Below the pieces are notes generated by a model. It had not been told where the DNA came from, did no database searches, and was given only the letters and a program-made list of their open reading frames with translations. A stretch of DNA of 34,861 nt, taken from positions 1 to 34,861 of the IMG/VR virus record IMGVR_UViG_3300042294_003323; one strand, 5' to 3'. Below, one piece after another: positions 30,909 through 34,861 of this stretch. The position numbers and the translations under genes are program-made. This DNA comes from a virus. Every line of letters starts with the position of its first letter. Positions within the stretch are counted from its first letter, which is position 1.

Positions 30909-31181
30909 CTAATCCCTCCGCCGTCCGTTCTTCGACGCTGGAAAGTTCTGACACTTCGCACCGTCCAGCGTATGAGCATCGAAACCGCAACCGCTGCACA
31001 TATACCGACCCGATTGCTCGTGTCTGCCAACACGCCCGTCAGTGCATTTTGGGCATCTGATGATCCTTGCCGGCTGAGTTTGTTGCGCGATCGCAGCAGG
31101 ACTTCCGCAGCCGGTGCAGAAATCGTTCTGAGCAGGCCTAGGCCCGCCACAGTACCGGCAATTGATTGTTCCAGTCTTCAC
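30909..31181 (-). CDS. Double zinc-ribbon protein
   Basis: 90 residues from GTG 31181, with AAAGG upstream. It has two zinc ribbons: CRYCG...CTGCG near the start and CPKC...CSGCG in the middle. Such proteins usually bind nucleic acid or partner proteins. It overlaps the end of the HD gene by four bases, and its end touches the dyad at 30880. Confidence 0.7.
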   Translation of the reverse strand: MKTGTINCRYCGGPRPAQNDFCTGCGSPAAIAQQTQPARIIRCPKCTDGRVGRHEQSGRYMCSGCGFDAHTLDGAKCQNFPASKNGRRRD

Positions 31182-31768
31182 ACTGACGCCTTTCGTTGTT
31201 CGTCCTTCAGATCCTCCCAAAACCACAGCCAGCCGTTCTTGTCCTGATCGACTGTTTTCGCCCAGGCCAGTTTCTTCGCTACGAAACCACGAGTGGCCTC
31301 GACAGCCAACGCTGGGCACTCGCTGGAGAACTGTTTCAACGCGAAAACAGCTTGATCGAGTGAGGCCATGTGAAGGGTTTCGCACTCGATGCGGTTTGCC
31401 ATATGGTCGGCCGCTTCTACGAGTCGCCTGTCTTCATCGGTAAACGTCACGCGATAGCGAGGAAACAGAATTGCGTCGATCTCGTTCGTGATATTGTCCA
31501 GCTCGAAACCGAGCCGTTCTTTCACTGGCCGAGGAACGTCGCTTGCGTAACACTCGTGGGCGTCGTGCATCAATGCCAGCCGAGCCGCCGCCGTAGTTCG
31601 ATCTGGGGGCAGCAGTTTCATTACGACCATTGAGTGACACGCCACCGACATCGGAACCGGCGAGCGACCCTGAAACCGGATCAGCCTTGCCATCCACAAG
31701 GCGAGTTCCTCGACTGGTGCCGCGTAGTCGGCGGCATCCTTCAACCAGTCTTGTCTGCAATCGGTCAC
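31178..31768 (-). CDS. HD-domain phosphohydrolase (YfbR-like)
   Basis: 196 residues. His45, the HDAHE motif (His68-Asp69, His71-Glu72) followed by DVPRPVKERLG, and a later Asp in EAADHMANRIE match HD-superfamily 5'-nucleotidases like YfbR, which dephosphorylate deoxynucleoside monophosphates. In a phage it could adjust nucleotide pools or remove a signalling nucleotide. GAAGGAG precedes the GTG start. It follows the HTH gene with one base between stop and start. Confidence 0.8.
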   Translation of the reverse strand: MTDCRQDWLKDAADYAAPVEELALWMARLIRFQGRSPVPMSVACHSMVVMKLLPPDRTTAAARLALMHDAHECYASDVPRPVKERLGFELDNITNEIDAILFPRYRVTFTDEDRRLVEAADHMANRIECETLHMASLDQAVFALKQFSSECPALAVEATRGFVAKKLAWAKTVDQDKNGWLWFWEDLKDEQRKASV

Positions 31769-31769
31769 T

Positions 31770-32009
31770 CTAAACTCCTTCTATCGAATCCGTTTCATCC
31801 TCAAAGGCTTCCGTGATCTCTCCGGCCAGCCACTTGTGGACCTCTCCAGTGTTCACCATTCGAAACTCTGCGCCATAGTACGGCCGTTGAGTTCCTCCGA
31901 GTGGTTTCCAGTGCAGACGGCGGGCATCCGTGGCCGCCATCAGTCTCCGCACTGGAACGCCGAATCTTTCGGCCGCCGCAGTCATTGCGACCCAATCATC
32001 CGTGATCAT
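31770..32009 (-). CDS. Excisionase-like / HTH DNA-binding protein
   Basis: 79 residues. The N-terminal half (WVAMTAAAERFGVPVRRLMAA) matches MerR/excisionase-type helix-turn-helix starts, and a later GEVHKWLAGE could be the wing. Size and closeness to the integrase suggest the recombination directionality factor. The ATG overlaps the CsrA stop (ATGA), so both are made together. Confidence 0.6.
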   Translation of the reverse strand: MITDDWVAMTAAAERFGVPVRRLMAATDARRLHWKPLGGTQRPYYGAEFRMVNTGEVHKWLAGEITEAFEDETDSIEGV

Positions 32010-32191
32010 GCTTCAACCGTTGCGAGTTCATCCCGCAGAATGGATTTGTCCCGAGGTGCTGAAATCCGCACGCGAACGTATCCGCCGCGAACCTCGACCA
32101 CATGGACTTTGATGCAACCATCGATGGTGATCGATTCGCCCTTTTTACGCTTCAACGTAAGGCAACCGATTTCGCTTCCTGTTTTGCTCAC
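32006..32191 (-). CDS. csrA: CsrA homologue (RNA-binding translational regulator)
   Basis: 61 residues, the usual CsrA size. LTLKRKKGESITIDGCIKV, split by the GES turn, HVVEVRGGYVRVRISAPRD and SILRDEL match CsrA from end to end, with the conserved RNA-binding Arg at residue 53. CsrA dimers bind GGA motifs in mRNA leaders and block or stabilise translation. The GTG at 32191 is chosen because GGAGAG lies six bases upstream; an in-frame ATG at 32203 is the alternative. Phage copies could redirect host CsrA targets or control the phage's own early mRNA. Confidence 0.82.
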   Translation of the reverse strand: MSKTGSEIGCLTLKRKKGESITIDGCIKVHVVEVRGGYVRVRISAPRDKSILRDELATVEA

Positions 32192-32208
32192 TGGTCTCTC
32201 CATGACAA

Positions 32209-32278
32209 CCGTTTTCGAAAACGGCCAGCGGCGATGGTTTCGACGTCTCCGACAAAGCGGAACTCCATCGCCGCTGGC
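32209..32278 (-). promoter_or_regulatory. Structured leader of the csrA gene
   Basis: A 16-bp perfect palindrome CCGTTTTCGAAAACGG (32209-32224) and a 14-bp inverted repeat, GCCAGCGGCGATGG at 32224-32237 with its exact complement at 32265-32278. The 27-base loop contains a TCGGAGAC sequence on the transcript. The structure lies just upstream of the csrA ribosome-binding site. Confidence 0.65.
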
Positions 32279-32306
32279 TGGCTGTGGCCACAATGGCCGC
32301 GCCCCT

Positions 32307-32393
32307 TCATCCCTTGAATATGTTTGCCTCGATTGCTCCAGCCGCAAAGATGCCGACGAGCACGACACAGAACAAGGCGAGCAGCTCAGACAT
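32307..32393 (-). CDS. 28-residue membrane peptide
   Basis: M-S-E-L-L-A, then a hydrophobic helix to about residue 21, then a short tail (IEANIFKG). GAGGTG lies four bases before the ATG. It fills part of the gap between the integrase and csrA genes. Size makes it uncertain, but the site and topology are good. Confidence 0.5.
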   Translation of the reverse strand: MSELLALFCVVLVGIFAAGAIEANIFKG

Positions 32394-32423
32394 GAGCCAC
32401 CTCACAGCCTAGCCCGTTAGCCT

Positions 32424-33722
32424 CTACCAGATTGGCAGCGTTTCGAGATTTGCCACTATTGCACGAAGTGGGCGATACGCTTGGAGGTAATGCTCCCGAG
32501 TGATCGCCGACACTGCTCCGTCCGTTACTGAATGCTTCAGCAGATAGGAGGCCGCCGACTCGTCGACATGATCCGCCCACATTGAGGCGCACCCTTTGCG
32601 AAAGCTCGCCACCGACTTCTGGCCGAGGCTCAGTTTTATCACTGGCTTTCGCGCTGCAATTCGGCTCGAATCGTCCAGCCCAGCCCTCTCCAGAATACCA
32701 GTCCATTCGCGTGACCAGTACCGGCTGTTGGAGGCAAGCGGAAAAACTCGCTCCGAATCCAGCCCCCGAAACAGTTCGATCAGAGACCGCAAACGGGAGG
32801 GAATTGGAACCAGCAGCTTGACTGGTTTCGCGGCTCGCTGAGATTTCTTTTTTGTCTTGTGAACAAGATACCACAGCCAGCCGTGCGGATTGTGGAGGTC
32901 GTCGAGTTTTGGGCACTGCGTTTCGTCGACGATATCCGCCCACAGGAGACCGGCTTTGTCGTTCGTGCGAGCCGGGAACCAGTCCTGAGACCGAAACCCG
33001 AACACGAAGTGCGACAGCAGGACGCATTCCCAGAACTGTGCTGGCGAAACATTCCCGATTCGAGGCCACTGGCAGCCGTTCAACACATCCGGCCTCATCA
33101 GTTTCGCGAACTCGTCTAGCGTTACGGGCTCGCCCTGAAAATCCGAGTTGTCCGTGCTCGCCGGCCTCATCATGTTCACGTCGCCGCGACAAGGCGACTT
33201 TGGAACCTTTGCTATCAGTCCAGCCTCGGCCGACCACCTCAGGAGTTTCATGATCGCATTGAGTGCCTGACCGCAGGAAGCCGAGGAACAACCCTTGTCT
33301 TGCGTTCTCAGGTGCCTCGCATAGTCCCAAAGAATATCTTTCGTTTCCGTGATTTGCTGCAGCGGATGAGTTTTGCTGCGGTGCTCCAGCCACGCCTGGA
33401 ACTTCACAATTCTCTGAATGTCCGCCCTGACAGTCTTCAACTCGTTCTGAAGCAATTCCTTCGGCTCCAGATTGGTTCTGTAAAGCTCGACCAATGACAC
33501 AGGTTCCGAGCGCAGAGGCGAAACGACTGAGCTGGTCAGCGAGTCGCTGACAGTCACGACAGGTGCAATGTCCGGAGCTGATGAGGGAGTGAAAACGAAC
33601 TGAGCTGGAGCCACATTCATAGGCCCGATCCCCCTGGGCATTTCGAATTGAACGACCACCCGGATCTCTATTGGTCGTCTTTGTTTCCGCACTTCGGTTC
33701 GCTGTTCGATCGGTGCAATCAT
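32424..33722 (-). CDS. int: Tyrosine-family integrase
   Basis: 432 residues. A core-binding SAM-like domain lies about 75-170. Catalytic domain: Arg244 in GFRSQDW, a Lys-rich beta hairpin near 289-293, the second box ASFRKG with Arg375 but without the usual His, His397 in LLKHS, and Tyr412 in REHYLQAY. It should recombine the tRNA-derived attP at 34393 with the host tRNA gene. Changes in the second box resemble divergent planctomycete integrases. AAGGA lies nine bases before ATG. Confidence 0.85.
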   Translation of the reverse strand: MIAPIEQRTEVRKQRRPIEIRVVVQFEMPRGIGPMNVAPAQFVFTPSSAPDIAPVVTVSDSLTSSVVSPLRSEPVSLVELYRTNLEPKELLQNELKTVRADIQRIVKFQAWLEHRSKTHPLQQITETKDILWDYARHLRTQDKGCSSASCGQALNAIMKLLRWSAEAGLIAKVPKSPCRGDVNMMRPASTDNSDFQGEPVTLDEFAKLMRPDVLNGCQWPRIGNVSPAQFWECVLLSHFVFGFRSQDWFPARTNDKAGLLWADIVDETQCPKLDDLHNPHGWLWYLVHKTKKKSQRAAKPVKLLVPIPSRLRSLIELFRGLDSERVFPLASNSRYWSREWTGILERAGLDDSSRIAARKPVIKLSLGQKSVASFRKGCASMWADHVDESAASYLLKHSVTDGAVSAITREHYLQAYRPLRAIVANLETLPIW

Positions 33723-34076: not shown

Positions 34077-34085
34077 CTATGTCAA
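34057..34085 (-). promoter_or_regulatory. Leftward promoter PL with operator O2
   Basis: Leftward TTGACA at 34085-34080 is a perfect -35. The -10 is weak (TACTCT at 17 bases, or TATTAC at 14). The dyad CAGATCTG (34069-34076) lies between them, so a bound repressor would block RNA polymerase. Transcripts would run to the integrase through the terminator at 33976. Confidence 0.45.
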
Positions 34086-34337
34086 CATCACTGATCTGTG
34101 ATTTTTAGATTTCTTCGGCGACTCACCAAAAATCAACTCTTTCACGTCTATTTGCAGCATTTCGGCTATTCGTTCGCATCGACTTAGCGTCACGTCCTCA
34201 CCGCCATTCAACAAACGACTGACGGCCGATTGCTTTGTTCCAAGTAGATCAGCGAGGTCGGATTGAGTTAATCCCCGCTCTTGGCGTATTCTTTCAAGGT
34301 TTTCGCAGAATCGATTCATGATGGAAGATGATGCCAT
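34077..34337 (-). CDS. XRE-family repressor
   Basis: 86 residues. The helix-turn-helix lies about residues 24-43 (LTQSDLADLLGTKQSAVSRLL), followed by a dimerisation helix ERIAEMLQIDVKELIFGE. GAGGGG lies six bases before the ATG. It should maintain lysogeny by binding the dyads at both sides of its own gene. There is no peptidase domain, so induction would not be by LexA-like self-cleavage. Confidence 0.82.
   Translation of the reverse strand: MASSSIMNRFCENLERIRQERGLTQSDLADLLGTKQSAVSRLLNGGEDVTLSRCERIAEMLQIDVKELIFGESPKKSKNHRSVMLT
34087..34102. promoter_or_regulatory. Operator O3
   Basis: ATCACTGATCTGTGAT, symmetric at seven of eight paired positions, inside the last codons of the repressor gene and two bases from the leftward -35. 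It closely matches O1 and O2. Confidence 0.6.
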
Positions 34338-34392: not shown

Positions 34393-34439
34393 TGGGGCCG
34401 CAGGGACTTGAACCCTGAACCAACGGATTATGAGTCCGC
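34393..34439 (-). other. attP core: 3' half of a CAU-anticodon tRNA gene
   Basis: On the leftward strand the sequence holds a complete anticodon arm (GCGGA-CTCATAA-TCCGT), a T arm (CAGGG-TTCAAGT-CCCTG), the acceptor 3' strand CGGCCCC and discriminator A, but no D arm or 5' acceptor strand nearby. This is the usual form of a phage attachment site: the tRNA 3' half restores the host gene after integration. The tRNA is Met or Ile2 (CAU). CCA is not encoded. Confidence 0.85.
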
Positions 34440-34457
34440 TCACACGAGGCTGGACGG

Positions 34458-34835
34458 ATGGAAAAGCTGAGCGAGGCGGCGTTTCAAAAACAGGTCATAG
34501 ATCTGGCTCACCTTCATCGCTGGCGAGTCGCTCATTTCAGGCCAGCTCGGACGACTGTCGCCGGCAGGGAGACCTGGCGGACTGCAGTGTCTGCCGATGG
34601 TGCTGGCTTCCCCGATCTAGTCCTCGCCAGAAACGGTGTCGTTCTGTTTCGCGAACTCAAGAGCGACAAAGGCAAAGCGTCGGCGGATCAACTCGCTTGG
34701 CTTCTGGCCGTCGGTGGTGAAATCTGGCGGCCGTCCGACTGGGAAAGAATCGCACGGGAAATTCGCGAACTCGGCGCACCCCCTCAAGGTACTTTCCGCC
34801 AACCTGCGTCTGCCCATACCACTGGGAACAGCTAA
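34458..34835 (+). CDS. VRR-NUC domain nuclease
   Basis: 125 residues. EAAFQKQVIDLAHLHRWRV, GFPDLVLARNGVVLFRELKSDKG and ADQLAWLLAVGGEIW match the VRR-NUC branch of PD-(D/E)xK nucleases. The metal-binding residues are Asp in FPDL, Glu and Lys in RELK. Stand-alone VRR-NUC proteins occur in many phages and probably resolve branched DNA during replication or packaging. It is the first gene of the rightward operon and starts 19 bases from attP. Confidence 0.85.
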   Translation: MEKLSEAAFQKQVIDLAHLHRWRVAHFRPARTTVAGRETWRTAVSADGAGFPDLVLARNGVVLFRELKSDKGKASADQLAWLLAVGGEIWRPSDWERIAREIRELGAPPQGTFRQPASAHTTGNS

Positions 34836-34861
34836 AAAAGGTTGCTGAGTTTGTTTGTTTG
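34831..34861. repeat. Terminal direct repeat, right copy (circular contig overlap)
   Basis: Exact copy of bases 1-31. Collapsing the two copies gives a circle of about 34,830 bp. A genuine packaged terminal repeat cannot be excluded from sequence alone, but 31 bp is short for that. Confidence 0.9.

Follow-up and report, generated by a model that had tools for sequence, protein, structure and literature searches.

Does a phage that carries its own csrA also repress it with the encoded protein, and which parts of the leader in front of the gene would take part? IMG/VR virus record IMGVR_UViG_3300042294_003323, analysed over its full length of 34,861 nt (hereafter the window), raises this question, since a csrA-like gene follows a structured leader and its Shine-Dalgarno (SD) sequence contains a CsrA-type ANGGA site. 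The initial annotation had read this arrangement as the architecture expected for autoregulation.

Genome context and the CsrA-family protein

The window carries a 31-nt exact direct repeat at its ends (1-31 and 34831-34861), and these ends are joined in UViG 3300043772_002678 (hereafter the relative), the only close relative found in IMG/VR by searches with CsrA, the integrase, the 79-aa protein and the leader pattern. Although recorded as 'linear', the window therefore very likely represents the whole of a circularly closed phage genome, about 34.8 kb in size with 34,830 unique bases. Its terminase and portal match PHROG head-and-packaging families, and a search of the window for a defence role gave no PADLOC match. 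Leftward from the probable attP, the genes are the Cro/C1 regulator, the integrase, the 28-aa ORF, csrA, the 79-aa gene and the YfbR-like phosphatase (Table 1). The attP-like tRNA-Met half matches, at 87.5%, part of a Planctomycetota prophage region (L118:77-124). The structure model of the integrase was uninformative (pLDDT 34). The best explanation is that the phage is temperate and that csrA lies in a leftward lysogeny or early segment, flanked by the integrase and a small gene for a putative DNA-binding protein.

Table 1 Features of the csrA segment and its surroundings in the window
Feature	Position	Strand	Basis or remark
YfbR-like deoxyribonucleotide 5'-phosphatase	31178..31768	-	PHROG 318, E 8.9e-19; SD AAGGAG
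Putative small winged-helix DNA-binding protein, 79 aa	31770..32009	-	91% identical in the relative
csrA, 61 aa, GTG start	32006..32191	-	PF02599; PHROG 9500 'CsrA-like regulator'
csrA leader, 115 nt, from the 28-aa ORF to csrA	32192..32306	-	
SD and ANGGA CsrA-type site, AUGGAGAG	32196..32203	-	Sequence; ACGGAGAG in the relative
Palindrome CCGTTTTCGAAAACGG, 16 bp	32209..32224	-	Sequence; not conserved in the relative
Hairpin, 14-bp arms 32278-32265 and 32237-32224, 27-nt loop	32224..32278	-	Stem conserved
GGA within the loop (CGGAG)	32248..32250	-	Predicted to pair with a UCC in the same loop
Hydrophobic ORF, 28 aa	32307..32393	-	Conserved in the relative (MSELLALFCVVLVGIFAAGAIEANIFKG)
Probable tyrosine recombinase (integrase)	32424..33722	-	Weak: phrog_1 E 0.0022; XerC E 0.00078, far under cut-off
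Cro/C1-type HTH regulator	34077..34337	-	PF01381, 51.1 bits
3' half of tRNA-Met(CAT), probable attP	34393..34440	-	Sequence; conserved in the relative

The csrA product scores 58.4 bits against PF02599 (E 6.7e-16; curated cut-off 27), and by this match the gene clearly encodes a phage CsrA-family protein that is predicted to bind RNA. When the protein is aligned with RsmE and CsrA structures, its residues 13, 15 and 53 (L, R and R) fall on L4, R6 and R44 of E. coli CsrA, which we take to be RNA-contact residues. The CsrA match proposed by the initial annotation, including the RNA-binding Arg, thus holds. The protein shares the fold family, the length and the conserved Leu and Arg of the RNA-binding surface with CsrA/RsmA proteins, but a 10-residue N-terminal extension precedes the CsrA fold and the usual MLxL start is absent. 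Since it stays below the cut-off of the NCBIfam csrA equivalog TIGR00202 (44.1 vs 70.1 bits), we call it a CsrA-family member and not an equivalog. CsrA of the relative is 89% identical across the alignment and 91% in the best segment. The relative has ACG in place of an in-frame ATG at 32203, and the GTG at 32191 was therefore taken as the start. In a CsrA tree of 55 columns, 32 of the 53 inner branches were open, so we make no claim of a single or multiple origin.

In both phages, the csrA stop and the start of the 79-aa gene overlap in an ATGA. The 79-aa protein has no Pfam, NCBIfam or PHROG match, and its AlphaFold2 model is weak, with the best PDB match at E 0.36. Identity as an excisionase (Xis) is not supported, with no HTH_17/Xis profile match even at E 10 and a model of low confidence. 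Synonymous sites of the 79-aa gene show unusual conservation, with differences from the relative at 3 of 37 fourfold sites, unlike those of int (90/181), csrA (11/28) and yfbR (36/79) around it; the count for the small ORF is 1/10. Recent exchange or a hidden signal may explain this.

Two further elements were observed nearer the attP. Palindromes of the CACAGATC type are repeated around TTGACA boxes at 34120-34060 and 34370-34340 (minus strand), flanking the HTH gene, and look like repressor operators. A conserved terminator-like hairpin, with a AAAGCCCGC stem and then a T-run, lies at 34015-33975 (minus strand) and at L003:4708-4739. Its position between the presumed operator-promoter and int suggests attenuation or antitermination of int.

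The Shine-Dalgarno site of csrA

Direct reading confirms the exact ANGGA that doubles as the SD of the GTG start: ATGGAGAG occupies 32203-32196, and 4 nt separate the SD from the GTG. In the relative, the upstream in-frame ATG is gone and the SD reads ACGGAGAG, so that AUGGA becomes ACGGA and the ANGGA is kept. Two more distant phage csrA genes, L034 and L035, have AUGGAGG and AAGGAGG at their SD. Within the phage, ANGGA is present at the SD of 8 of the 29 likely gene starts, including those of int and yfbR.

We compared the SD (positions -20 to -4) of 53 csrA genes, taken from genomes and prophages of Planctomycetota, with controls. The sample comprises 44 genes from five genomes, picked for having their csrA on one long contig, and 9 genes near terminases. 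Matches left out were L129 (match beginning at profile position 2), L118 (GTG one codon upstream of the match; SD ACAGGAGG, with GGA and without ANGGA), one same-score copy and one partial match in G374, three partial or interrupted matches in G506, and one match below the cut-off in G416. GGA is present at the SD of 50/53 csrA genes and of 52/159 unambiguous-start controls from the same five genomes (p 2.5e-16), and ANGGA at 34/53 and 16/159 (p 3.7e-14), respectively. Genes starting at their first ATG (n = 349) gave 127 with GGA and 39 with ANGGA, and rpmJ controls (n = 25, after 5 of 30 loci without a recognisable start motif were dropped) gave 11 and 4. groES was left out of the controls because its start codons are not fixed by a motif. 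Even among GGA-bearing genes, ANGGA is commoner in csrA (34/50 vs 16/52 controls, p 3e-4).

The contexts in csrA are AA in 23, AC in 6, AT in 5 and AG in 5. The enrichment over controls is strongest for AAGGA, which makes up most of the ANGGA excess among GGA-bearing genes. Since AAGGA is itself a strong SD and the csrA paralogues share ancestry, strong translation is a live alternative, and much of the GGA and ANGGA enrichment could arise simply from selection of a strong SD.

Autorepression at the SD is nevertheless likely, judged from the site and its recurrence. CsrA dimers would bind the ANGGA at the csrA SD, block the ribosome and repress their own translation. Because of the ATGA overlap with the csrA stop, the 79-aa gene would be down-regulated along with csrA through translational coupling. 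In E. coli, csrA autoregulation involves four CsrA sites, one of them on the SD, and autorepression via the SD site is established in the available portion of PMC7652899; for the phage csrA, in contrast, the evidence supports no site beyond that at the SD. The csrA genes show no enrichment of a second GGA at bridging distance (32/50 csrA vs 40/54 controls), and a scan of the phage for a CsrB-like sponge found no cluster of more than 5 ANGGA per 200 nt.

The leader hairpin and alternative readings

Both the 16-bp palindrome and the 14-bp hairpin with a GGA in its loop, described upstream of csrA by the initial annotation, are present there. Only two perfect stems in the window reach 11 bp (loop 3-40), the 14-bp stem being one of them, and five shuffles gave 2, 1, 0, 0 and 0. 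The leaders of the window and the relative both fold better than shuffles, with z-scores of -3.0 to -3.7 for the leader and -2.5 for the exact 115-nt leader. All 14 pairs of the stem are kept in the relative, with one compensatory double change from A-U to G-C and one change from C-G to U-G; for three random stem substitutions, the probability of keeping all pairs is 0.05-0.17. These are 3 substitutions in 28 bases, and since divergence is uneven along the segment, the low rate is only suggestive of constraint on the stem.

The hairpin is not supported as a second CsrA site: in both phages the loop GGA is predicted to form part of an inner helix, and GGA in a hairpin loop is not significantly enriched in the csrA leaders of the class (13/53 vs 21/157 controls, p 0.08). 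Across the sample, folding is slightly stronger in csrA leaders than in controls (median z -0.48, n = 53, vs -0.01, n = 80; p 0.011). The palindrome is missing in the relative, the sole close one, which rules it out as a conserved operator. The annotation had also held that conservation of the protein without its GGA and hairpin leader in relatives would count against autoregulation. The close relative retains the stem and the SD ANGGA but lacks the palindrome; in distant phage and prophage csrA genes, the SD GGA is mostly kept but the 14-bp hairpin is not seen. The autoregulatory architecture therefore stands in part: GGA at the SD is far commoner in csrA of the host group and its prophages than in controls, while the palindrome and the loop GGA lack such support.

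Searches for the leader as a known or wider motif were negative. Rfam gave no match at gathering over the whole window, and the sole hit of a permissive RNA-family scan of 32150-32440 was a miRNA match attributable to chance (E 0.45). The pattern GCGGCGATGG N15-42 CCATCGCCGC matched 33 viral stretches, but among their fetched loci tblastn found CsrA only in the known relative, and the others were taken as chance.

The upstream hairpin may support the SD site, but roles as a terminator, an attenuator or an element of int retroregulation are at least as likely. The locus could be explained as a whole by an intrinsic, tI-like terminator or attenuator of the integrase and small-ORF transcript, with csrA expressed by read-through or from its own promoter and the ANGGA serving merely as an SD. 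The integrase lies directly upstream of the leader on the same strand, in the relative CA and T6 follow the GC-rich 14-bp stem, and the prophage csrA genes L120, L121 and L122 start 30-50 nt past a GC-rich hairpin with a T-rich tail. However, only T4 follows the stem in the window, at 27 nt the loop is long for a terminator, terminator consensus scans called the hairpin in neither phage, and no csrA promoter was recognised in a scan; we regard this explanation as rather unlikely, though one to be taken seriously. In phage lambda, sib controls the decay of int mRNA from the 3' side (retroregulation), and the hairpin could be a similar processing site with csrA as a downstream passenger. A long duplex that is conserved and lies some 150 nt past the int stop, with int on the same strand, would suit such a role, but just 32 nt separate the end of the hairpin from csrA, and we consider it improbable.

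The leader could also be coding. A 40-aa ORF (32310-32188) overlaps the 28-aa ORF by ATGA and csrA by GTGA in the window and would couple translation along the operon, and a coupled upstream ORF is a known type of CsrA target, as for iraD in the portion of PMC7652899 available. In the relative, however, 1-nt indels break the 40-aa frame, which ends ahead of the SD, and the ORF has no family match. We therefore took the leader as non-coding and hold a coding role for very improbable. On the comparisons above, we lean with slightly better than even confidence towards the combined reading in which a temperate phage csrA is autorepressed at its SD ANGGA, the 79-aa gene is coupled to it, and the hairpin is a conserved element of the transcript.

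csrA in Planctomycetota and their prophages

Relatives of the phage terminase, sought by peptide patterns among GTDB species genomes, were found in two MAGs, one of Phycisphaerales and one of Clostridiales (39 and 36% identical). Phycisphaerales belong to Planctomycetota, and the phage probably infects members of this phylum. The phage CsrA was matched in 108 of the 294 genomes of the phylum of the Phycisphaerales MAG (E 0.001), the best matches having about 50-60% identity over about 50 aa. Within one Planctomycetota class, which we infer to be Planctomycetia, 99/297 genomes contain relatives of the phage terminase. Of those 99, all 36 genomes searched carry CsrA, with 1-15 matches each and 271 in total; the expansion of the family across these genomes is striking. 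Since such hosts carry 1-15 CsrA matches themselves, replacement of host CsrA control by the phage protein, which the initial annotation raised along with titration, looks less likely than an addition to it.

The gene recurs just upstream of prophage terminases in Planctomycetota. In 8 of the 36 genomes, csrA lies at most 16 kb upstream of the terminase on the same strand, with 0.65 expected (p 4e-7; the 16-kb limit was set after the distances were seen), and within 30 kb on either side and on any strand there are 11 with 4.8 expected (p 0.011). Among the neighbours of these csrA genes are a phage metallopeptidase and a PD-(D/E)XK nuclease (G468), along with a LexA-type DNA-binding domain (G506) and a weak Mu Gam-like match (G416); a Pfam match at E 0.01 was obtained for 8 of 20 scanned neighbours. 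Among eight virus records with related terminases, three carry CsrA, the close relative being one. In L116 and L123, csrA begins shortly past a tRNA-like sequence, that of L123 being called by ARAGORN, as if placed at an attachment site.

Phage csrA and csrA autoregulation are already known, so that this locus places a known type of gene in unusual surroundings and does not constitute a new type of system. The available part of one survey reports csrA in 30 of 2517 phage genomes, with hosts including Pseudomonas and Burkholderia, and that part has 0 occurrences of 'Planctomycet' (PMC7366521). The phage CsrA had no tblastn match at E 0.01 among 50,697 INPHARED records, and open-licence PMC gave no title on csrA in Planctomycetota or their phages. 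Knock-down of the csrA homologue PTXU04_00028, from another phage and host, leads to smaller plaques, according to the extract at hand of PMC11879866. The phage gene shares its mobile-element setting with RsmQ, a plasmid-borne CsrA/Rsm protein reported to regulate its host in the accessible text of PMC9928087.

The phage csrA and the ATGA-coupled 79-aa gene might form a switch read by the CsrA pool of the cell, in which host and phage CsrA both bind the leader and phages are one source of the Planctomycetota CsrA expansion. We consider this a long shot; if true, the integration and excision genes of the prophage would follow the metabolic state of the host. The role of phage csrA has barely been tested so far. 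The genomes searched suggest a group in which hosts and prophages repeatedly carry csrA, with nearly every SD holding GGA, and cross-talk between phage and host via one RNA-binding family thereby becomes directly testable.
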